This document shows positions 14,865-56,600 of a stretch of 64,000 nt of DNA, piece by piece. The notes under the pieces are model-generated. The model had not been told where the DNA came from. It saw only the letters and a list, made by a program, of their open reading frames with translations, and did not search any database. The stretch comes from Sphagnum magellanicum (Eukaryota > Streptophyta > Sphagnopsida > Sphagnales > Sphagnaceae): positions 24,190,256 to 24,254,255 of the forward strand of contig CM038910.1 of NCBI GenBank assembly GCA_021904315.1. The letters run 5' to 3'. The position numbers were made by a program, and so were the translations under genes. Positions within the stretch are counted from its first letter, which is position 1; each line of letters starts with the position of its first letter.

Positions 14865-16395
14865 GAGCCGATGTTGGAACTGAAACAAATATCAATTCTA
14901 CCATGAGATTTACTACCATCATCTAGGCACTAACCAATTAGAAGATATATTTTGTTAGAAGGATTTGGAGCACCTAGAATGGTTGTTCTCTGCAAAAAAT
15001 ACTAATGATGGCCAAGTTGCACATTAAAGTGTTACTTGTTCATACTCCTTTTAAAGCAATTGAACAAGCTCTTTTAATGTGTTCTAATGTGTTTGAACAT
15101 ATTTTCTCTTTACTTCTTTTTATATGTGCTACATAAGGCAATAGGTTTAGGATCTCCATCTTGTCATTCCACTATCTTAATGTGGATGGTTTGTTGTATG
15201 GTTAGTAGTATCTGGTTTTGTCAATTGGAGTTAGGTGTGACCATGTCAACAAACTTTGTTATTGTGATCTCACCACAACACTTCTAGAAGGTCTTTGAGG
15301 ATACAACAAGGGAAGTAATTCCCTTTCAGAAGCTAGTCGACAATTTCGAAGCCCAGTCTTAGTTGGTAGCAAATGATGGACCCATCTTCACCTTTTTCAC
15401 CAACAAGGATGCACCTAGATATAAACTTGCTCAAATTGATTTGAATGTTCCAAGAAACTTGATAGATGTGATACCTGAATCAAATATTGATGTGCTATAA
15501 AAAGTTTGTTGCATAAACAGACAATAACTATTGTTGTGCTACATTAATGATGTCAAACATTTGCTTTAGATACATGATTTGGAGATTAACATTTTGTAGC
15601 ATTGGATCCCCTTGGAGATTGGTACAATGATCAATATATCAACAAAATGAAAGGAATCAATTTTTTTTTCAACGTCATTAACTTTTTTAACTCCTAAAAC
15701 TATGTATCATTATGATTTGAAGGTTACCAATGAAGAACCGAAGGTCAAGTTCTTAAGGGAAATTGGTGGAGACATTTTTTATCGTACTACATTTGAAACT
15801 TGGCAAATGTTTGTACCTAGTAATGATGGCACTAAGATCCCAATGTTCATAGTGACACATAAAGGTCTTGTTCCAGATGGAAACCACCCAACATTGTTTT
15901 ACGATTATGGGGGATTTAACATTAGCCTTACTCCCAATTTCAATGTGTCTAGCTTAGTTCTCGTTCGACATTATGGGGCAATTATGGCAATAACAAACAT
16001 TAGAAGTGGGAAAGAATATGGAGAAAAGTGGCACAAATTTGGCTTTTCTTTTTAAAAGTAGAATTGTTTTGATGACTTTGTGTCATATGTAAAGTACTTG
16101 ATAAAGGAGGGCTACACACAATCCAACATACTCTACATTGAAGGTGGTAGTAATGGAGGTTTACGTGTAGCTACTTGCATTAATCAATTTTTTTTGTAAT
16201 TCTGATATGTCTACTCCTTTCTACTTCACATATTTTCATTTTAAACAGTGCAATAAAATTTGTGCCTCCTTGTTTTCAATGAGCTTACTCGGAGCGAATC
16301 ATTTATTGTGCATAGATTATAATTTTCTGATTGTGCTTTGGCCCATGTAGGTGTGATGGATATGTTGTGATTCCACAAATTCATAATTGGTGAAC
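14865..16395 (+). pseudogene. Prolyl oligopeptidase (S9A) pseudogene fragment
   Basis: Prolyl oligopeptidases are cytosolic serine proteases with an N-terminal beta-propeller and a C-terminal alpha/beta-hydrolase domain. Pieces in family order on the plus strand are: GTETNIN and LGTNQLEDI (14870-14960), FTFFTNKDAPRYKLAQIDL (15385-15450), DVKHLL (about 15550), DGTKIPMFIV and YGGFNISLTPNF (15825-15945), GKEYGEKWHK (16010), the nucleophile motif EGGSNGG (16138-16160) and AHVGVMDML with FHKFIIG (16340-16392). In-frame stops, frameshifts and intron-like gaps (for example 16190-16320) interrupt it. It ends before the catalytic Asp and His, and the start of the propeller is missing. Retained intron positions suggest a genomic duplicate, not a retrocopy. 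Confidence 0.88.
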
Positions 16396-27594: not shown

Positions 27595-30500
27595 TCACCA
27601 TCCCTTGTTGGTGGGAGGTTGCCATTTTCCACCAGGGTGGTGGCCTCTGCTATAGTCACTATGGCGTCTTTTCCATGGCAGTTGATTTGCAATTCTTCCC
27701 CTTGGTTTGTGCCAATAGCTCAATTTTGGCTCACGAATTCCCTGCACACAACAAAAATAGAAGAAAAAAAAAGATTTGGGACACTTCCATCTTTGAGGGT
27801 TGTGTGGAAATTCTCAAAACTCTTTTCATGGTGTTTTAAACTACATGAAGCTAAAACAAGAACAAAATTGGCTGTCTGATATTGGATACACAAAGCCCAT
27901 GAGTTTGAACCATAAGATTTACCTGAGAAGGGCCTGGACCTGATGAATATCTTGGAACATAAATCTGTTCATGTTCCCATGATTTTGGAACATGATACTT
28001 GTCCTCCATGACTTTTGTGTTCGTGTTATAATCCAAATGAGGAGGATTTCTTGCACAACTCTCCCCAACTTTCAGTTGAGCAGCATCTTTTGCAAACGAC
28101 TCTCCCAGTACATGTGCTATTGTGTTTGGAGCATCTCTAACACCTTTAGAGTCCTTACAGTTTGTGTAATCCTTTTGGCAGGCTGCAGAATTGGTCATGC
28201 AAATCTGTTTTTCACCAGATGCTTCTGGTCTCCAGATGCCAACCTCCACTGAATCAGATCTCACAGGAGTTGTCTTTGGGTCCCAACTCCTGCCTGCTGC
28301 TGAAGCATGCTCATTCTGCGGCAAATGTAGATTCCTCCTCCTGCCATAAGCAGACATTTCAACAATGCATTGCTTCAATTGCGAAGTCAATGACATGACA
28401 TCTCCTCCCTGTCACTAAGAATACACTTATCTCCAGATCAGATTGTGGAAGAAACTAGAACCATATTTGACAGGGCTTGAAGGTGAACATTTTTTCCAAT
28501 TATAAAAACTGTACCCATCTCAAGAAACTCACCAGGATGTATCAGAAAGTGCTGTACACTTTACCAGGAAGAAGACATGGACTAAGATAATCTACGAAAC
28601 TGAAAGAATTGTTAGAGGTACTAGGATTCTCAGGCTTACCAGCTGTTGCTATTTCTTGGAGGCAGAACTGGACCTGTAATGGGCTCTTCATCCACTGATG
28701 TCTCCTCATTTGGCATATCCCATCTAGTATGATTCCTACCTAATGGAGTCTTTGAAATGGACACCACCACATCCTTGCTGTCAAAATCATCATGCCTGGG
28801 CACCAGATGAGGTGGTGGACCAGGCATCTCCTCGATTGAAACATCATTTTTCTCTTTGATTAAAGAGATTTCCTCATCAAGATCTGTTCTTTCTTTTGGT
28901 TCCTTTACAATCTCACTCTTTCGCTGCTTTTTGTGCCCATTGTCTGTCTCTTTGTCTGATTGATTCATACGTTTTTTTTTGTTGTTCTTTGGAGTCCCAT
29001 TTGTCATCTGCTCTTTCTCAAAACCACTGTCACCTCCATCAACCTCATCCTTCACTTTTGGCTTGTTGGGTGTGAGGGAACTCCCAGTAGGTGATGGTTT
29101 GGCAAGCTTGGATCTTTCTCCCAATACTGGTTCCTCACCCTCAAATCCCATGCCTCCATCCTTATGAAATTCTATCAAGTCTGGCACTTTCTGCCTGCAA
29201 TATTGTCAGTTTCTTCCAGTTACAATCCACATAAAAAGGAAGGGTTTTCCTCTGCTGGAAAAAAAACCTATGGAAAAAAATCAATCATAAAAGCCCCACA
29301 ATCAGTCAGCACTAATCCATTTCCTGACAACAAGTGCAAATAGACCCCTGGGCTTGCATAAGTAGATTCCTCTTCTTATTTATGAATGTACAAAGAGATC
29401 TTGTAGCAGTTTCAAAACAGCATTCAAAGGTGTAAAAAAATTGCTAGTCAGTGCTTGCCTTATAAATGACTTTTTTCTTCTGTTACCCTTTGTGAGAATC
29501 TGGTAGCATCCACGGTTGTGAGCATCATCAATTAATGTGCCCCAAACAGGGCTCCATTGCCGAAGAGTTTCAGCATGACCAACAATAATGAGAGCAAATC
29601 TGGCCCTCGTCAATGCCACATTCATACGACGCTCATCTGAAACAAAACCCAATCCTCGATTGGCCATCGCACGCACACAAGACAGCAAAATAACATCCTT
29701 CTCCCTTCCTTGAAATCCGTCGACTGTGTTAACCTCACACATTATGCCATCAATCCCACGTTCCTCAAGTTGGCGTTCAATCAGCCCTCGCTGAGCAATG
29801 TACGGTGTAATGACACCCATGTTCGGCTTGCATCCAACTTTGAGTGCTTTCGTCACTCCCTCAATTACACTGCACACCACTTGAGCTTCTTCGTAATTGG
29901 ATCGAGAGTGACCCACTGCTTCTTCTTGTTCTATTCCCCAGCCCACATCTACAAAACAATAATGACCAAGATTCAAAGTTGACCCATTTATCACAACTTT
30001 CTCCTCCTCGTTGAATATTGACTGCAATTTACGTGTCTGCAATGAGTTCTTCAGAGCTGCATTATAGAATCGTTGTGATGGGTATTGGGAAATCTCTGGG
30101 TGCATTCGGTACTGTGTTCTTAGGAAATGAACAGGAACTCCAGCCTCCTGTAGACGCTCGAACAAACTCCGCAGGAATGCAGTAGCTGTGTACACACAGT
30201 GTCAAATCATTAACCGGATAGAGCTTGCTTACTACTCAGACCCCTACCAGTGCTCTCCTATAGCAAAGCTGAACCTTTATCTTTGAGGAGATCTAGACAT
30301 TTGTCTCTAGCCTGACAGGTGAATCAAGGTGGAAAGAAGGGAAAAAAAAAACAGGCTCTGTTTTAGATTGTCACAAACCTGGTCTCTGAAATACAGTAGC
30401 TGGCAATTGGCAGGGATCCCCAACAAGTACACATCGTCCCTTGACCCTCTTTAGTGCTATTAATACTTCTGCCTCTACTGCCTGGTTTACATACAACATT

Positions 30501-33500
30501 GTCAGCCCAACCATAGGAGGATCTAAGAAAACTGAAATTGTATGGAAAAATGCAAGATTTAATATTTTGACCCATGTGTTTCCACAATTTCTACATCTCT
30601 AAAGTCATAATGCAATCCATTTTACAGATTCTAACAAAAAACACTCTTGGGTGTTTTGGAAGCACTGGAGCCAGCAGTAAATGACAAGAGCAGTTGCTTT
30701 TCACTCATTTTTAAGGTCCATAATTGTAAAACATAGCAAAACAAAGGAATAGCTGCAAAAGGTCAGGATCATCTCACCTGAACTGCTTCATCTGTAATCA
30801 GCTCACAAGTCACCCCAAAGCAGATATAACCCCAAAACCCATCAAAACCCAGATAAATCCAGAAGCATAAAGGAACACCATGATAGAACAATCTAGCCAA
30901 ACAATCTCAGTACATGTGGCTAGATGTTGCTAGAATTTGCAAGTCTGTATTAGATCTCGATAGATGAATTTCACATGTCTGTCTAGCAAAGATCTGACAT
31001 TCGGAAAGGCAGTTAGTGTTCTACTGACATACCAATAATGACAACATCAAAAGGTCGAGAGAGTTCATCAAAAATGCTCTGACCACATCCGGAAAGAGTG
31101 GCGCAAACAATGGATGCACCCTCCAATATATCAACCCAGGATCTGGAATGCTCGGCACTCGTAGTAGATAGGCGGGCAGAGAGCTGATCCAAGCTGACGG
31201 ACTGCACATCTGGATGCATCAACTTCTTAGACCCAAACCGCACCAACGATCCAGCTACTGGGGTATAGAAGTCACCAGCTTTGTCAAGCATCCGGTGCAT
31301 CAACCGTGCCACCAATTCATCCAAAGCTGCATTTGATGGAGCACAAACTAACACTCGTACCCTGCACCCAAATTCAGTACAAAAAATCATTACATTAATC
31401 ATCTTAACCACCTTGCATCCAAGTCATTGTGGAACACAATTGTGTCCTGAACCTTCTTCGAATTTTCTATCTTTTGTCATTGATGCAGCATCTGAAGGAG
31501 CACCCAAAAACATGAAAAGCTCAAATTGGGTCCATGCATACTTGGCTCTGTTATTGTTGAAATCATCAAATCACCAAAAAAACACATAAATTCAATGGAT
31601 TACAGAAATAAATCTACAGTCTATAAACTAGTGTAAATCATGGGTGGGTATTAAATGTAGATTTATTTCTGTAATTACATCTCATATTTTATTTTAGATC
31701 CTCCTTTTTTGTTAAAGAAAATCATCAGAGAAAAAAAAATTAAAAAGCCTACATTTTGCCCTGGGATTTTACAGAGGGGGCAGAAATCTTCTGGAGGTTC
31801 TGGCAATTAGCCAGAAATATGAAAGGATTCATTAATTTTTTGTACTTTCTACTGGTTTGTAGCCAGATTTGGCTGAATCTACCTACGGAAGATCACCACA
31901 TTTGCTGTATCTTTTTATGGATGATTGCCACTTTGGCTCTGTCACAAAATTCCTGAAACAAACACTGATGTCCGTGCAGCTTTTGGCTGATTGTCAGATA
32001 CAAAAAAGGCACTAAAACATGTAAAAAAGCAGAGGAGTCATACCCAGCTTCTTCAATCAGCAGGGATGATATCATTCCTGTGTTGAATAAACAAAACAAA
32101 AAAATGGTCAGTGTTTGTGGGAAGTGCAAGAATTTGTAAGGTTCTTCAGTGTGGACCTGGTAGCATCAGATTGCACTCAAAATCTACAAACAAGACAGAA
32201 GTTGGCAACTTATGACCGATAAAGATACACAAAGCATGAAATTGGGTCAAGCTTTTGAAGTAGATCTGCAATATCTACTGTGAAGACAACATCCAAATCA
32301 AAATCCACATTGCATGAATTCCAGAGAAAAAAAAACCAAAGCAAGGGTTTCAATACTCACCGACAATTGCAGAGGTCTGGAACCACAGTTGGAAACCACA
32401 GAACAAAAAAAATGTCAGAATGAGAGGGACACAATCAACTACCTGATATTTAAGTACACAACAAACTTGTGCCAAAACACCTCTCAGAAAGCAGTCACAG
32501 GATTACCAACTTTGCCCATTTGGATCACTAAATTCTCTCACTTTTCTGTCACACATTCAATCAACAAACTACTTGGAAACACAAGCATAATTTCATATCA
32601 GTGTGTAGGGGGAGAATTGTGACCAACCTTGCCAGTTCCTGGAGGACCTGCGAAAGAACAACACAGATATATGTCAACTCTTATCTTCTCTCATAATCAA
32701 TGCCAGTAAGAAAACACAGGATTTTGGCATATTGTACCACTCCCAAATTCTTTAAACACACAAGCAAATATAAAGGAGATTATAAAGCTGACTTAAGAGC
32801 ATCTCCAACAGTGCTCAGTATGTGACCCTGCAAAAATATTTCTCACATCCAAGTTTTAGTTACTTACATTATTTCCAACCCCACCCATAAAATTAAAACC
32901 GGGACTGCAAATAGGTGGCAGACTGCTAATCGCAAACCACTTGGACCAATCATTATGATTGGCGAATCAGAAACAGGGGGCAGCAGTCATTATCATATTT
33001 ATTACACTCTTCTCTAGCAGGTGTTAGGTTTTGCTGTGCCTCTCACTGGCCTCAAAAAACTGTACAAAAATGCTGGGCCAAAACCATTTTGCTGAGCCAA
33101 ACCAGCACATTTTCACTTTTCTTCATCCAATTTTAATTTGCAGGGTCACATGCTGAGCACCACATTGACTTGAAGAACTTGGGAAATGGGGCCCCTTTAC
33201 CTTGTACAAGAAGGAAGCCTTGGCGCAAACTGAGAAGAGCAGAAACAGCCATCAATTGTGTGCTGTTAAGAATCTTGCAAACTTTGAACGTTTCTAGACT
33301 TTGAAAGCTGCATTGGATGATGGCGGGTGACAATTGCTTACAGGACATTGGGTCCAAAAGCTGCCGCTGCAATGGACTGAACATTTCCCCAATTGATGAA
33401 ACAGAGACAAACATGCGGCACAGTGTCACCATGTTGCTGATTCTCACTAAAACACACTGTTTTTTTCTCCACCCACCCAACAAACCACCCACCAACCCCC

Positions 33501-36500
33501 CACAACTCAGAGAAAATCAATTACAAACAGCTGGGTTCAGCACAAGTTGACAGAAGTAAGCAACAGTATGCATTTCAGCATTGCTTTTATAAACACAACA
33601 GCATAAAAGCAACAAACATATTCAAATCCCACACCTGTCCAAGTGAGGAATCCCAAGCAGCACGTGCTCTGAGAACTGCACTACAGGTACGGTCTTTAGA
33701 ATAGACGATAGCAAGAGCCTTAATTTGCTTCGTCTCTGGCACCATCATCCCCAGCAGTTCCCCAATATCTAATTTCAGGTTTGGCCCTTCTGCATGCCTC
33801 ACCTCCATGTAATGGAATGGGTCACCTGGGGTTTGTATCATTCCCTGAACATTCCACCTTGTTGCCATCCCCCTCTCAGTTGTTTGACCCACTACTACAC
33901 ACACACACACACACACACACACCCATTGTTTAACCCAGTTTAGACTTCCAGTGTTGAAACTCTCAGCAGCCCTGAGAAATCTGACAGAGAAACATTTAGC
34001 TTGAAGAGAAGTGGATCAAAACCTGCAACTTGTTCATCTCTCAAGATGTGAAGAAAGTCAATGAAAGATTTTAACTACTTGAAACCAAACATGGGTCATA
34101 TTTTTTTATGAGGTTGCGGAGCATTCCACATCCCAACACAAGATCCAGCATAGAATTACAACCCCATTCATTTTTTTCTCTTCACCTGTTTGAGAGATTT
34201 TTCAGGCTAGGAGACATACTAACGCCTTGTGTAGACAGGTCCTTGAGCTCCACATCAGGATTCTGCTCTGCTACATACTCATCCCAGTTGGTCAGAAGGA
34301 AAGCCTTTGCCTCTTTCAGTACCAGTCCTTTGAAACTTGTGATGTAATCAGATGTGGAAGAGAACCTTAAGACAAGAGGTGACTGATTTTGTATCTGCGC
34401 GATTGGCTCTGAAGCATTCTCATGGGTAGAGGACAAGGGAATCCATGGCCCTTGGAAACCCAAAACTGTCCAGTCAAAATGGTCTTCTGGAGGTGCTTCA
34501 GCAGCAGGAGATGCTGCCACTGCTGCTCTAGATGGTCTAGGAGGACGGATTCGGCCCCTACCTCCTGCCCCGCATATATGGGTCTGCATCAAAACCAAAA
34601 AAAACACACACAGAAGCCCAAGTAGTTTCTTCAATGCTGGAGAACATCAGGTACTTCTTCATTCACTGGAAAAGAAAAGATTATGTGGGTAGGGCTTTCA
34701 AGCAAAGACAAGAACTTGCCTGTTTCTGCAAGGTTTTCCTTTGAGTATTCTCCTCATCACTACTGGATGATGATCCACTTTCAGAGCTAGCTAACACTAG
34801 CACCTGTTTCGGCTGCCACGTAGTGAGTGGCATCACTGCTGTTGGCCCATACTTGGCTGTCTGGATTACCTCGCTGTGCTTTTCTGCTATTGAAATGTTT
34901 TTGGGATTGGTCTGTTCTGCTGGCTGATTTTTCCCAGCACTGTTCTTTTCAAACACCTGGACTTTTCCCTGGCTTGAATCACCTTCACTCGAGGTGTCAG
35001 AAGAGCTGCTTGTTGATGGTTGTGAGCTTGAAACTTCAGGGGTTCTGTTCTTTGGATCCAAAGATGAGCTGTCAGATTGACTCGATGGTTGTTTGGACCT
35101 GCCAGAGTGTTCCACGCCATTGCCCAAATCCAAGCTGCTTATCCTAATAGGTGTGTTCCACATGCCTTGTTCAGGCACCTTAAGAGTACTATCATGGTAA
35201 TGCAAAAAACCCGAAACAGACATGACACCACCCACATGACCCCCCCATTTTTCAGCTGTAGAAGTTAATGCTTCAAAACACAAGCTCCCAAGAAAAATTC
35301 CAACAGCAAGAATCGAAAATAGAATTGTAGCTGTTGAGAGCTTTGATTCATAGCATTTGAAATTTTCTTCAAATTGAAAGAAAAAAGGAGACGCAACCAG
35401 AGTGCAAAGATCCATTGTTGGCAAAGAATCATCCCACTGTCCAGCTTTAAATTTTGCCAATACTGGCACATAGACAAACACAACCAAACAAAAAACCCCA
35501 TGTAAGTGGAAAATAGCAAACCTGGAAATGCCACTTTGGTGCAGTTGTCTTTCAGATGATCTCTTCTTCTTGCCGCTGCCTTGAGACAGGCTTGATCCTT
35601 TCCTAGAATCCCTATTTTTTTCTCGGTGGCTATAATCATATGGGTGGTTGTTGTTGTTGTCGTCATTGTTGATCAGACCTTCATTCTCTGAGGGATTATC
35701 TGAGATATAATAGCAGAAAGTGGTTTCTGTTATCCTTTGTCAAAGACAAGACCCTTTGCTACTCGAATCCCAAACAAATCCAGTCACAGAACTAATCTTG
35801 CTAAACATTCCATGACCATACTGTTGACAATCTAGTAGTCCAAATGATAACAATCATGTTCCATTACAGATTCAGCATGGATAAGATCAATAGCTTGCAC
35901 TTTTGCCAAAAAACTACAGAAATTCAGGCTCATCGGGTTATCAGTTTAGAGAAAACCATATGTGAAAAAAAATGGCTTCTGAGATTTGGAAGATCACAAT
36001 CTACAGAGTTTGGTTACCAGACATGAGTAGAAAACATCAGAGAAATCTCCCTGACAACAGTTTGAAGGTTTAGGATGATGAAGAAGACAACATACATAAT
36101 ATAACATAACATAACAGATAGACTACCTGAGGAATAGAGAATGAGTGCATTGTTGTTGTCAGCAGCTGTCTGTTCTGGAACTGGAGACTCAGAGCCATGA
36201 AGAACTGGAACAACAGAATCCACTGGTGTATTCTCAAACCGTTTTGTATTCGTGTTATATCCTGGGCCAACAATTTCCATCATGCAATGAAAGTTTGATG
36301 AAATTTAGAAACTTTTTTTTTTTTTCCTGAGTCTCTAGATCCTAAACCTGGGGTACTCGGAGGAAACGGACGGTGAAATCTGTTTGCACATTCTAATCTC
36401 ATTCTCCTCATTCTCACTCTCCCGTAACAAAGATTTGCACAAATGTGAAAGAAAATGCACATTGCAGAGGCAAAAATAACAATGGAAGCTTAAACCCTAA

Positions 36501-36788
36501 ACCCTAAACCCCAACAAATCTGAGCTTCATGAAAGGGGTCGTTGGGTTGTTGTGGGGGCAGGGGGGGGGGGAGGAACCAGAACATCAACCCACTTTTAAC
36601 ATACCCAAAGGAAATGCAGGCTCAGAAAATTGGCGATACAGAAATTCAGCATGTGCTTTCAGCCGCTGCAACTCGCCTTTCAATCTCTTCACCTCCTTTT
36701 GTCTCACCCTCACCAAATCCACTATCGCCCGCTCCGCTGCTTCCTGCACTGCATTGTCCCCATTCTGCTCACTCCCTAGACCCTTCAT
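27595..36788 (-). CDS. SEN1/UPF1-like superfamily 1 helicase, 17 exons, 1422 aa
   Basis: A likely ATP-dependent nucleic-acid helicase of the SEN1/UPF1 (MAA3-like) group, acting on RNA or RNA-DNA hybrids. Exons on the minus strand are 36788-36605, 36261-36127, 35699-35522, 35188-34720, 34583-34220, 33891-33635, 33456-33201, 32647-32628, 32376-32361, 32077-32044, 31361-31033, 30791-30778, 30481-30379, 30185-29392, 29190-28640, 28340-27923 and 27741-27595 (4269 nt). Residues 1-60 form a probable coiled coil (RQKEVKRLKGELQRLKAHAE). A Ser/Asn-rich disordered region follows. The helicase core has GPPGTGKT (615-622), CAPSNAALDEL (about 641), DEAVQ (748-752), GDPCQLPAT, QYRMHPEIS (811-819), VDGFQGREKDV (941) and RRMNVALTRAR (972). 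The C-terminal 370 residues are charged and low complexity, ending in a basic Trp/Gly/Arg tail. An in-frame TGA lies 15 bases upstream of the start codon. The exact orthologue is uncertain. Confidence 0.88.
28640..29190 (-). other. Helicase exon 15: charged, probably disordered tail
   Basis: This exon encodes about 183 residues rich in Lys, Glu, Asp and Ser (KKKRMNQSDKETDNGHKKQR) after the helicase core. It joins to exon 16 in phase 2 as ...NSNS|W|RRN. The apparent stop (TGG TAA) in the open frame is the splice donor TG|GTAAGC. An alternative is that translation stops here if the intron is retained. Confidence 0.75.
29392..30185 (-). other. Helicase exon 14: second RecA domain (AAA_12)
   Basis: The largest exon, 794 nt, carrying helicase motifs IV to VI: QYRMHPEIS, TPYIAQRGLIERQL, NTVDGFQGREKDVILLSCVR and MNVALTRAR. 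All key Gln/Arg residues for ATP binding and hydrolysis are intact, so the enzyme is predicted to be active. The donor is TTT|GTACAT in phase 0, which avoids the stop 12 bases further on. Confidence 0.88.
31600..31674 (-). other. 19-bp perfect inverted repeat in helicase intron 10
   Basis: TTACAGAAATAAATCTACA at 31600-31618 is exactly complementary to TGTAGATTTATTTCTGTAA at 31656-31674, with a 37-base loop. It lies in the intron between the 34-nt exon and the motif Ia exon. It could be a foldback element, a miRNA-like hairpin or a splicing structure; none is proven. Confidence 0.7.
32797..33165. mobile_element. MITE-like insertion in helicase intron 7
   Basis: GTGCTCAGTATGTGACCCTG at 32811 and onwards is matched, in inverted orientation and with one mismatch over about 24 bases, by CAGGGTCACATGCTGAGCAC ending at 33160. 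The left end begins AGCATCTCCAACAG, a word frequent at ends of plant miniature inverted-repeat elements. TGACTT words flank both sides (about 32789 and 33166) and could be a target-site duplication. There is no coding capacity. Confidence 0.55.
33897..33922 (+). repeat. (CA)n microsatellite at helicase intron 5 acceptor
   Basis: An uninterrupted AC/CA run. On the gene strand it is (GT)n ending a few bases before the TAGTAG acceptor of exon 6. Confidence 0.9.
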
Positions 36789-37035: not shown

Positions 37036-37775
37036 CTTAAACCCTAAACCCTAAGACAAAAACCCCGCCCTTTTTTGTCTTTTGCTTAGGAATCAACTTC
37101 TTTCAACTAAAAAGAACACCCAACTCTTTTTTCTTCTGCACAAGAAGAAAGAGTTGATGGTTTTCATCTTTCTCAAATTATTTCAATATGGAAAAACACA
37201 CACACACACACACACAATCCCTTAAACCCTAAAGCCTAAGACAAAACCCTCACTCACCTTTTCATTTGTTTTGCTTAACAAATCAATTTCTTTCAACTAA
37301 AAGAATACCCAACTCTTTCTTCTGCACAAGAAGAAAGAGTTGATGGTTTTCATCTTTCTCAAATTATTTTAATATGGAAAAAAAAACACACTATAATTAC
37401 CTCCAACTTTGTGCATTAAATGCTGAGTTTCAGCATTTCATACTGAGATTTAATAAAATTTCCTTACTTTGAGGACCTCACTCAAAGAGGGGATTGGGGG
37501 GTGAAAACAGGCTCAAAGGCAGGGTGAAGACAGGATGACTTCAAGGAAAACTCTATTGTATTTGAAAAAAGCATGCACAATCCCTTAAAGCCTAAGACAA
37601 AACCGCATTCTCTTGTCTTTGGCTTAGCAATCATTTTCTTTCAATGGAAACTACCCAACTCTCTCTTCTTCACAAGAAAGAGTTGATGGTTTCATAGTTT
37701 CATCTTTCTCAAAATATTTTTATATGAAAAAAAACATGCACAATCCCTTAAACCCTAAGATAAAACCGCACCCTT
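37036..37775. repeat. Telobox-containing tandem repeat, three copies, each with a hairpin
   Basis: A unit of about 175-185 bases is repeated at about 37041-37215, 37216-37385 and 37568-37735, with a fourth start at 37740-37775. Each starts with CCCTTAAACCCTAAG-like telobox sequence, then TTTGCTTAG..ATCA.TTTCTTTCAA, then a hairpin, and ends GATGGTTTTCATCTTTCTCAAA.TATTT. In copy 2 the hairpin is perfect: CAACTCTTTCTTCT / AGAAGAAAGAGTTG, stem 14, loop GCACA. Copies 2 and 3 are separated by an unrelated insert of about 175 bases (37391-37565). Confidence 0.85.
37201..37217 (+). repeat. (CA)n microsatellite
   Basis: ACACACACACACACACA inside the boundary between tandem units 1 and 2. Confidence 0.8.
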
Positions 37776-53635: not shown

Positions 53636-56600
53636 CTACGATTTCAAAGCTGCCAGAAGATTTCGGTACCGTGGAGTCTCCTCATCAAAGATATAAGTCA
53701 GTGGGGACACCAAAACCCCGCTGCCTCCTGCCTGCATTACCAAACACTTCCAGTCAATTGAAGTATTCAAAAGGAGCAACAGTCTGTGCAGTAGTGATTG
53801 CTGATGAGTTTGTTTTTCATGACATTCAACACTGCACATGGAAACCTGTCAAACTGAAAAAGCCAGGATGAATGTACCTTCCGCAGTTGGCGTACAGCAT
53901 GGTAGAGTTTGGGCTTTGGCACACATATGACAATTGCATAGTAGTCCACACAGATGTTTCCAGCTTTAGTGGTGTACACAGGACTTATTGTGGGTCCCTG
54001 AAACACCAACAAGACATTCTGAGCTATTGATTTGAATTTACACCATAAAAAGCAAACAAATTTAGGTCTGTCCTGTGAAGTCACATTGCTTACATGAGCA
54101 TGTATCAGAAAGATATCAACAGCTTGTTTCCAGTTCATTTCTAGATATTGTGGCTTCTAACAACTTCCACAAGAATAACAATTACTTCCTTATGCCCTAC
54201 ACATGTGTACCGTTGCAATACCTGCAGTCCTGGAAAGTCTGTATGCTCTAAAATCCGTTCAGCTACTTCTTCTGCTGAGCTGCCTCTCATATTGGCCACT
54301 ACCTGTACTTAGCAAACTAACCATGTCAGTTTTACAACATTGGTGAGAACCCGTTCTGCAGAGCCTTTCCAGATCCTCTGATGGATGAGCCAAGCAAGCT
54401 GTTGTGCATCACAATGATACGGTAAATACATATACAGCAATCATACACCATCAACACAAGTAAAGAAGGAGAAGAGCAGCTCAGTTGTGAATGACAATAC
54501 CGTGAACTGGCCATGTGCAGTCAGATGAGCTTCAAAACGCTCCAGCAATTCATGGGCTACATCAAGCACTTCCTTGCGCTCCATAAGTGCACGTTTGTTT
54601 GCAACAAATACACCCTTCAAGCATATGTGACTCTGTGTTAAACCATTTGCCTCTTGAACATATGGGAATGGGCATTGGGCAACAACATTCTGAATCACAA
54701 TTGTGCCTTTATTTCCACCTAACTCAATATAATAATCATGCTTCCAACTATTCTCATAACTTTTCAAATTTGAGGTTTTTTTCTGAGCTCTATTTACCTG
54801 GCTGCTAAGCACTGCTCCACCATTAATCTCCTTGAGATTGTTTTCACGAAGTGTGGTTCCACTGCTCACAAGATCCAGTATGGCATCAGCTGTGCCCATC
54901 TGTCCATGGCAACACCAGCCACCATACTAATTTAAGGTCTCTTTCTTGGGTCTTCAGGATTGGTCGGAGCTGCAAAGCTGCTGCCAAAATTGAGGTTGAT
55001 AGATAGTAAGCTGAATTGATGTTTTAGAAAATCAGCTTTCTGGACACACACTTTGACAAGCATAAGCAAGTGCTTCATCATGTTTTGGAAGAAGATGGAC
55101 CAAGTTGACAAACTTCAACAATCTCAAAAGACAATTTTCTCCTCTGATCTAATTTGCTTACCGCTGGCGCAGCTTCTAAGGCTCCATCAGCTGTTGAGAG
55201 TTGCACATGTTTCAACCCTTTTTCTTGAAAAAACTTCTCTCCAAGCTGCATCCATGGGCAGCCAGCCACATGAACCCAAATGAGACAAACATGAATGGCT
55301 GCAGTGGAACTGGTTGTACCACAACAAACTAAAACTCACCAGAGTCACACCAACTTCAAAGGGGAGTGGAATAATACGGACATAAGTATAGCCTGTGACA
55401 ACTCGCAGAGGCCGATCTTCAGTCCACTGTGGCATAGCTGCTAACTGGCTTAACGATGAGATGTTTTCAAATATACCATAAGTTGGAATCTGCAGAAAAG
55501 ATCAGGGAGCACAGCCCATATAGTAAAAAAGTTGTGTATTTAGCACACAGAGACCCTTGAAAAAGATGTGAGACATTTGAAAATAAAATCCAACTCCTGA
55601 ACCTCAACAAAGCCAATGTTTAACCTCTCCCTCTTCCTGAGAACCCTACAGGCAAGAGTACATGAACCATACCCCAATACCAAGATGACATTCCCCGAAA
55701 CCAAGCGCATCGTGAATGATAATGAGATCCTCATCGTCCTGGTCCAAACAAGGAAACAACAGCATATTTTAAAATCAAGCTTGAGCATGACCACACATGC
55801 AGATTCCACAATCTACAAAGAATCACCACAGACACAACAAACTTTTTGCACAATAATTAACCAAATGACACAGATGGTGAACGATCCCTTGACATGTGGC
55901 CCCTTCAGCATCAAAACCCTAACCTAATGCATAGGAGAGAAGTTCTTCAAACCAACCTCCCCATATTCTCGAACCATGTCATATCCCACAATGCCCATGT
56001 CCACATCTCCTGATCGCAATTTGCGTACCACGTCTGATGCCCGCTGAAACCAGACTTCAACATTCTTGAGCTGTGCACACACACCCACTTGCCACCATGA
56101 TGTTTCTCATTATTGGAGGACATCTAACAAAACTATTTGTCAACTATTATTGCCAAGATATGTAAACCTGAAAAGGCAAGAGGAAAAAAAAAAGGCTAGC
56201 TACTAAGGGAACTCACTTCAGAGATATCTGCAATGTATTGGCGAGGATTGAGCTTGCGTACTGAAAGCTCACACTCCTATCCACCAATTCCCCCCAGAAA
56301 GATACAATGTGACAATTCTCTTCTTTGAGACAATCATGTCCTCAGTCTCAATCTACAATCCCTGAGGGATCTATCTCAAGAGATCTACAACGATTCACAT
56401 GACAACTTCAAGGGTACTAGGGTTGAATAACCTGGAGAAGAGCAAGTGTGTCCTCCGCCATTCGTCCTTTACTTGGCAATGCCATGCGCACCGTTTCTCG
56501 CTCCACTATGGATGCCAGCTTCCTAATACCTGAAATAATGATTTTCCTCCATCCTCATTACCATCATCAAAGCCGTGACAAGGGATAGTAGACTGAGACT

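Follow-up and report, generated by a model that had tools for sequence, protein, structure and literature searches.

Micro-exons carrying the catalytic motifs of a Sen1-type helicase gene in a moss genome

The locus analysed here raises the question of whether the ATPase core of a helicase is put together, in part, from coding exons of 14 to 34 nt and, if so, whether their inclusion in the message could turn the enzyme on and off. A preliminary description had placed four such micro-exons, of 20, 16, 34 and 14 nt with AG and GT ends and fitting phases, in a 64-kb window of moss DNA (i.e., the whole stretch analysed in this work), and had assigned to them the Walker A motif, the helix that follows it and the Walker B motif. 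All four are present there letter for letter on the minus strand, each with AG directly before it and GT directly after, and their coordinates, borders, frame and motifs are the same in our independently rebuilt model of 17 exons, as is the numbering of exons 7, 8-10, 11 and 12.

In this model, exon 7 (33201..33366; 166 nt; minus strand, like all exons and introns of the gene given below) ends with the first base of the codon for the initial G of GPPGTGK, and this last base together with exon 8 (32647-32628; 20 nt; GTCCTCCAGGAACTGGCAAG) encodes GPPGTGK itself, the Walker A loop or motif I. Exon 9 (32376-32361; 16 nt; ACCTCTGCAATTGTCG) carries the T of GKT; it had been described as encoding TSAIVG, of which TSAIV stands, whilst the final G has only its first base there. 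Exon 10 (32077-32044; 34 nt; GAATGATATCATCCCTGCTGATTGAAGAAGCTGG) completes the helix that follows Walker A (G-MISSLLIEEAG). Exon 11 (31033..31361; 329 nt) then runs from motif Ia (CAPSNAALDE) into the Asp codon of motif II, where it ends after one base, and this last base together with exon 12 (30791-30778; 14 nt; ATGAAGCAGTTCAG) encodes DEAVQ (Walker B, motif II). The motif III region (VGDPCQLPA) lies in exon 13 (30379..30481; 103 nt) and motifs IV-VI in exon 14 (29459..30185; 727 nt), which ends at a GC donor. If the name micro-exon covers any internal coding exon that has canonical splice sites and does not exceed 51 nt, all four belong here; with a limit of 15 nt, only exon 12 does.

The whole coding span extends over 27595..36788, where the 17 exons add up to 4074 nt and form one continuous frame, 1357 codons followed by a stop. 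Exons 1-9 measure, in order, 184, 135, 178, 424, 364, 260, 166, 20 and 16 nt, and exons 10-17 measure 34, 329, 14, 103, 727, 555, 418 and 147 nt. The introns are GT-AG in 14 of 16 cases and GC-AG after exons 4 and 14; the two GC donors, at 34720 and 29459, are otherwise consensus-like (CAG/GCAAGT and AAG/GCAAGC). The part of the model that covers the helicase core is strong. The N-terminal exons are its least certain part, because the acceptor of exon 4 is weak, intron 3 (35521-35144; 378 nt, a multiple of three) is free of stops, such that its retention would add 126 in-frame residues, and five other loci carry matches, 76-78% identical, to a 909-nt stretch (35291-34383) that begins late in intron 3 and runs through exon 4 and intron 4 into exon 5. 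Around it, these five loci share longer sequence with each other (93-95% over 1.7-9.1 kb, for the five of ten pairs compared). A mobile element could have captured this fragment of the gene or, conversely, that part of the gene could itself derive from an element.

Such repetition of part of the gene, inside larger shared sequence, is also what could be expected of a pseudogene, left intact by chance after its expression was lost. This is very improbable here, considering that 17 exons and 16 GT-AG or GC-AG introns give no stop in 1357 codons, that the helicase motifs are kept when compared to Sen1, and that no second copy of the helicase core, which could have taken over as a replacement, was found by nucleotide and protein searches of the same genome (438,994,042 bases in 31 contigs). 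The core protein has 28 matches in this genome; four are the gene itself and the other 24 are weaker, with at most 62% identity over short stretches.

Other features of the window lie outside the gene. Upstream of it, at 37036-37391, there is a tandem duplication of about 186 bp (87% matches) beside telomere-like TTTAGGG runs. An open stretch at 54444-54926 (minus strand) matches HisG, the ATP phosphoribosyltransferase (E 7.4e-09), and an isolated one at 15651-16052 (plus strand), perhaps the remnant of a gene, resembles prolyl oligopeptidase weakly, its match (E 0.0054) falling short of the Pfam cut-off. Nothing in the window was picked up by Rfam or by a tRNA scan.

The protein is, judging from its sequence, a helicase, in line with the preliminary description, and more precisely a Sen1/UPF1-type SF1B helicase. 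Pfam finds AAA_11 (6.7e-49) and AAA_12 (5.8e-57) in its 1357 aa, each of which makes up one half of the SF1B helicase core in UPF1/Sen1-type enzymes, and SF1 motifs I-VI are all present alongside them. Its best PDB matches are 8ftm, a "5'-3' RNA helicase-like protein" that we take to be the Sen1 of Chaetomium (2.2e-69), Helicase SEN1 (2.5e-66) and UPF1 (6e-59), followed by SMUBP-2, DNA2, ZNFX1 and Aquarius. By the bit scores of this search (221-238 for the Sen1 entries, 194-203 for UPF1/NAM7, 143 for SMUBP-2, 135 for DNA2, 84 for ZNFX1 and 70-72 for Aquarius), the protein is nearer to Sen1/UPF1 than to DNA2, ZNFX1 or Aquarius. It shares with the Sen1 structures 8ftm and 5mzn aligned GPPGTGKT, CAPSNAALDE, DEAxQ, VGDPxQLP, QYRMHPEI and RRMNVALTRAR motifs, and the pieces of 8ftm are 41% identical to it over 415 columns. 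The distance from the motif I helix to the motif Ia strand differs, with six residues in the moss protein as opposed to 29 in both fungal Sen1 rows. Without the residues encoded by the micro-exons, the AAA_11 score falls from 184.7 to 113.2 bits, so these residues are part of the domain. Helicases of the Sen1 clade unwind RNA or RNA:DNA hybrids at the expense of ATP, and the moss protein would be expected to have a similar biochemical activity, with 5'-3' polarity.

Exons this short could in principle be chance matches, motifs I and II being encoded by other, larger exons, and the DNA around them leaves some room for this, since windows of 90 to 270 nt around the micro-exons are stop-free. Their splice sites, nevertheless, are strong. 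With scoring matrices that draw only on the remaining 12 donors and 12 acceptors of the gene, the four micro-exon donors surpass 94.1-97.4% of the intronic GT decoys (304 in number), and the corresponding acceptors 96.4-98.8% of the intronic AG decoys (253 in number).

The exons were also sought with a spliced protein-to-DNA aligner written for this purpose, with fragments of the Sen1 proteins 8ftm and yeast SEN1, as well as SMUBP-2, serving as guides; the longer loop after the motif I helix was left out of the fungal guides, whilst that of SMUBP-2 is short. With splice scores and an intron cost of 32, the Sen1 guides recover exons 8, 9 and 12 exactly, as well as the start of exon 10, and with splice scores the SMUBP-2 guide recovers exons 8, 9 and 10 exactly at both ends. 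The fungal guides end exon 10 at 32062, through a GC donor, instead of at 32044, both when splice-scored and at a constant intron cost of 8; this constant cost, used without splice scores, still recovers exon 9 and the start of exon 10. The calls do depend on the cost of introns. Spurious exons of a few bases are added at splice-scored costs of 16 and 24, and a constant cost of 12 or 16 without splice scores loses exons 9 and 10 in favor of an exon 11 extended from 31411. This last result speaks for larger exons, but the extended exon 11 turns the GKT of Walker A into GKV, and exons 8 and 12 are recovered at all the settings tried, with constant and splice-scored costs alike.

The same larger-exon reading has to contend with shuffled DNA. 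When the DNA between exons 7 and 11, or that between exons 11 and 13, was dinucleotide-shuffled and realigned at a cost of 32 only, none of 300 shuffles reached the score of the real sequence in any of four guide tests (z from 6.3 to 8.6), the real score and the best shuffle being 175.4 and 148.2, 112.4 and 85.5, 260.8 and 242.0, and 134.3 and 117.8, respectively. Considering all this, we see very little chance that motifs I and II are encoded by exons other than those of the model. A processed copy of the gene was also looked for: in the same genome, exons 7-13 joined together (682 nt) match nothing but the exons of the gene itself (two candidates, four matches), exons 8, 9 and 12 being too short to show in this search. 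With no processed copy found, this search gives no proof of splicing.

What would happen if a micro-exon was left out of the message? The preliminary description held that skipping any of them would destroy ATPase activity or shift the frame, and a shift is indeed the result: skipping exon 8, 9, 10 or 12 alone leads to a stop after 583, 578, 586 and 778 residues, respectively. Among all the 15 possible combinations of skips, only those of exons 8 and 9 (1345 aa) and of exons 8 and 10 (1339 aa) leave the frame open, i.e., early stops follow from 4/4 single and 9/11 combined skips. Similarly, retention of any one of introns 7-13 leads to a stop after 585 to 744 residues. Mis-splicing of any one micro-exon would then give an early-stop message, and messages of this sort would probably be degraded.

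It had further been proposed that inclusion of the micro-exons could act as an on/off switch, in which case the helicase would be turned on or off by tissue or condition. Single skips do remove or frame-shift the ATPase core, the joint skip of exons 8 and 9 (36 nt) deletes the Walker A loop in frame, leaving a 1345-aa frame that might act as a dominant-negative form, and there is a precedent for regulation in Arabidopsis, where GRP20 is required for some micro-exons to be kept, including those of flower genes (PMC10808074). This proposal finds little favor in our results, as all four micro-exons have strong splice sites and skipping one of them gives an early-stop message instead of a switched protein. 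In addition, the percent spliced-in of most plant coding micro-exons of 1-15 nt is above 0.5 according to PMC8831610, and constitutive inclusion of the exons described here fits this. A regulated switch is thus very unlikely, although it is conceivable in the one narrow form that involves exons 8 and 9, the usual outcome of mis-splicing being an early-stop message. A more elaborate version, in which these two exons are a symmetrical 36-nt cassette skipped together in some cells to give a full-length blocker without Walker A, within a deep and maybe distinct lineage of the Sen1 clade, seems to us less likely still.

The alternative that we prefer, and which in all probability is correct, is that of an ordinary nuclear SF1B helicase gene of the Sen1 clade, with micro-exons as 4/17 of its coding exons, all in the catalytic core and likely constitutive. 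The micro-exons would be defined by the strong splice sites flanking them and would be present in nearly all mature messages.

How these exons came to be so short may be approached through relatives of the gene, for which our comparisons cover sequences in the PDB and in the same genome. Eight further helicases of this genome were modelled automatically. Three of them stand out for their identity to the moss gene described here: a MAA3-like gene (L033, region of C2:4111071; 43%), a third gene (L030, also on C2; 40%) and a Sen1-like gene (L029, region of C14:13186500; 39%), the MAA3-like and Sen1-like labels being our own and presumed. In a tree of 10 rows, the moss gene groups with these three and with the 8ftm protein (support 94/94); among the five, it is the first to branch off and the other four are joined at 83/84, which is not firm. 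The moss gene hence falls outside the group that holds the separate MAA3-like gene, in a tree without a true MAA3 sequence and at a fork left open by this support (83/84).

The introns of these relatives show both similarities and differences. Walker A is cut or bordered by introns in three of the nine genes, each time at a different place: residue 571 phase 1 in the moss gene, 571 phase 0 in the MAA3-like gene and 574 phase 1, inside Walker A and three codons further on than in the moss gene, in the Sen1-like gene. The gene L030, on the other hand, holds motifs I and Ia within one open exon. The MAA3-like gene, which by identity is the nearest relative in the genome, has one intron next to Walker A and another after motif II, as here; its Walker A lies in an exon of 46 nt and its motif II in one of 93 nt, and the intron after motif II is at 710 phase 0, three bases beyond the 709 phase 0 of the moss gene. 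In the Sen1-like gene this intron is at 709 phase 0, exactly as in the moss gene, but there is no intron shortly before motif II and hence no 14-nt exon. The model of the Sen1-like gene also has a possible exon of 17 nt (5025-5041 of L029), which appears at an intron cost of 30 and is absent at 36.

The shared 709 phase 0 intron is only suggestive of common ancestry between the moss gene and the Sen1-like gene, since under uniform placement the probability of at least one exact match at 709 is 0.036 for the Sen1-like gene alone, 0.11 for the three nearest relatives and 0.24 for all eight. Left out of the count behind these figures were a duplicate in L035 and, because that stretch is a single open exon, the first two intron calls of L030.

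It could also be asked whether the introns around the micro-exons were made by an intron-creating transposable element (introner), as two of these introns do contain dispersed repeats. Intron 7 holds a high-copy element just upstream of the Walker A micro-exon (33160-32811; 40 of 2829 candidates were scored), which matches, at one of its ends, the opposite end of its copy L051 in inverted orientation, and intron 10 holds a second repeat (about 31967-31690; 72-81% identity to the copies scored, 40 of 516 candidates). The first of these starts 40 nt inside its intron and the second lies well inside, so neither is the maker of the intron in which it is found. With the borders of the repeats being internal, and with introns 8-9 and 11-12 matching only themselves in the same genome, an introner origin was rejected; it strikes us as scarcely probable, if with less certainty for introners that are old and decayed.

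The micro-exons of this ordinary helicase gene most likely arose, instead, when introns ended up near one another within conserved coding sequence, presumably by separate gains or losses of introns in each gene of the helicase family. One suggestion for the 14-nt exon is that a second intron may have landed 14 nt upstream of an older one at 709. In this way three exons of 14-20 nt, together with one of 34 nt, would have come to carry the Walker A loop, the helix following it and Walker B.

Should RNA confirm this structure, gene finders and splice aligners could be cleanly tested on the gene: the enzyme is otherwise well conserved, yet its catalytic core breaks as soon as any one of the four exons of 14-34 nt is missed. 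The relatives in the same genome, with catalytic motifs cut by introns at different places, would be useful for the question of micro-exon origin.

Micro-exons are already well established in plants. PMC8831610 reports 2398 of 1-15 nt across ten species, the moss P. patens contributing 158, with 51-90% being coding depending on the species; the annotated share varies from 17 to 78% among the ten plants and is 73% in P. patens. In Arabidopsis, 1,186 genes contain annotated micro-exons of 25 nt or less, 1,317 in total (PMC10808074). Land plants as a whole have 45 conserved clusters of coding micro-exons (PMC8831610; MEPDB, PMC12409088), the members of a cluster having one size and phase and a similar 36-aa tag in three or more land plants, and another helicase, RECQ3, contains two such clusters (PMC8831610). 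Terms for Sen1-type helicases are absent from the main text of PMC8831610 and PMC12409088, and by title none of the publications among the matches listed deals with micro-exons of Sen1-type helicases or with this gene.

Four micro-exons in a single catalytic core may be unusual. The moss helicase gene is nonetheless a well-supported further instance of a known phenomenon, and does not by itself constitute a new mechanism. Just like the conserved micro-exons of other plants, those described here are internal and coding, fall within 1-15 nt (exon 12) or within 51 nt (all four), and are located inside a conserved catalytic domain.
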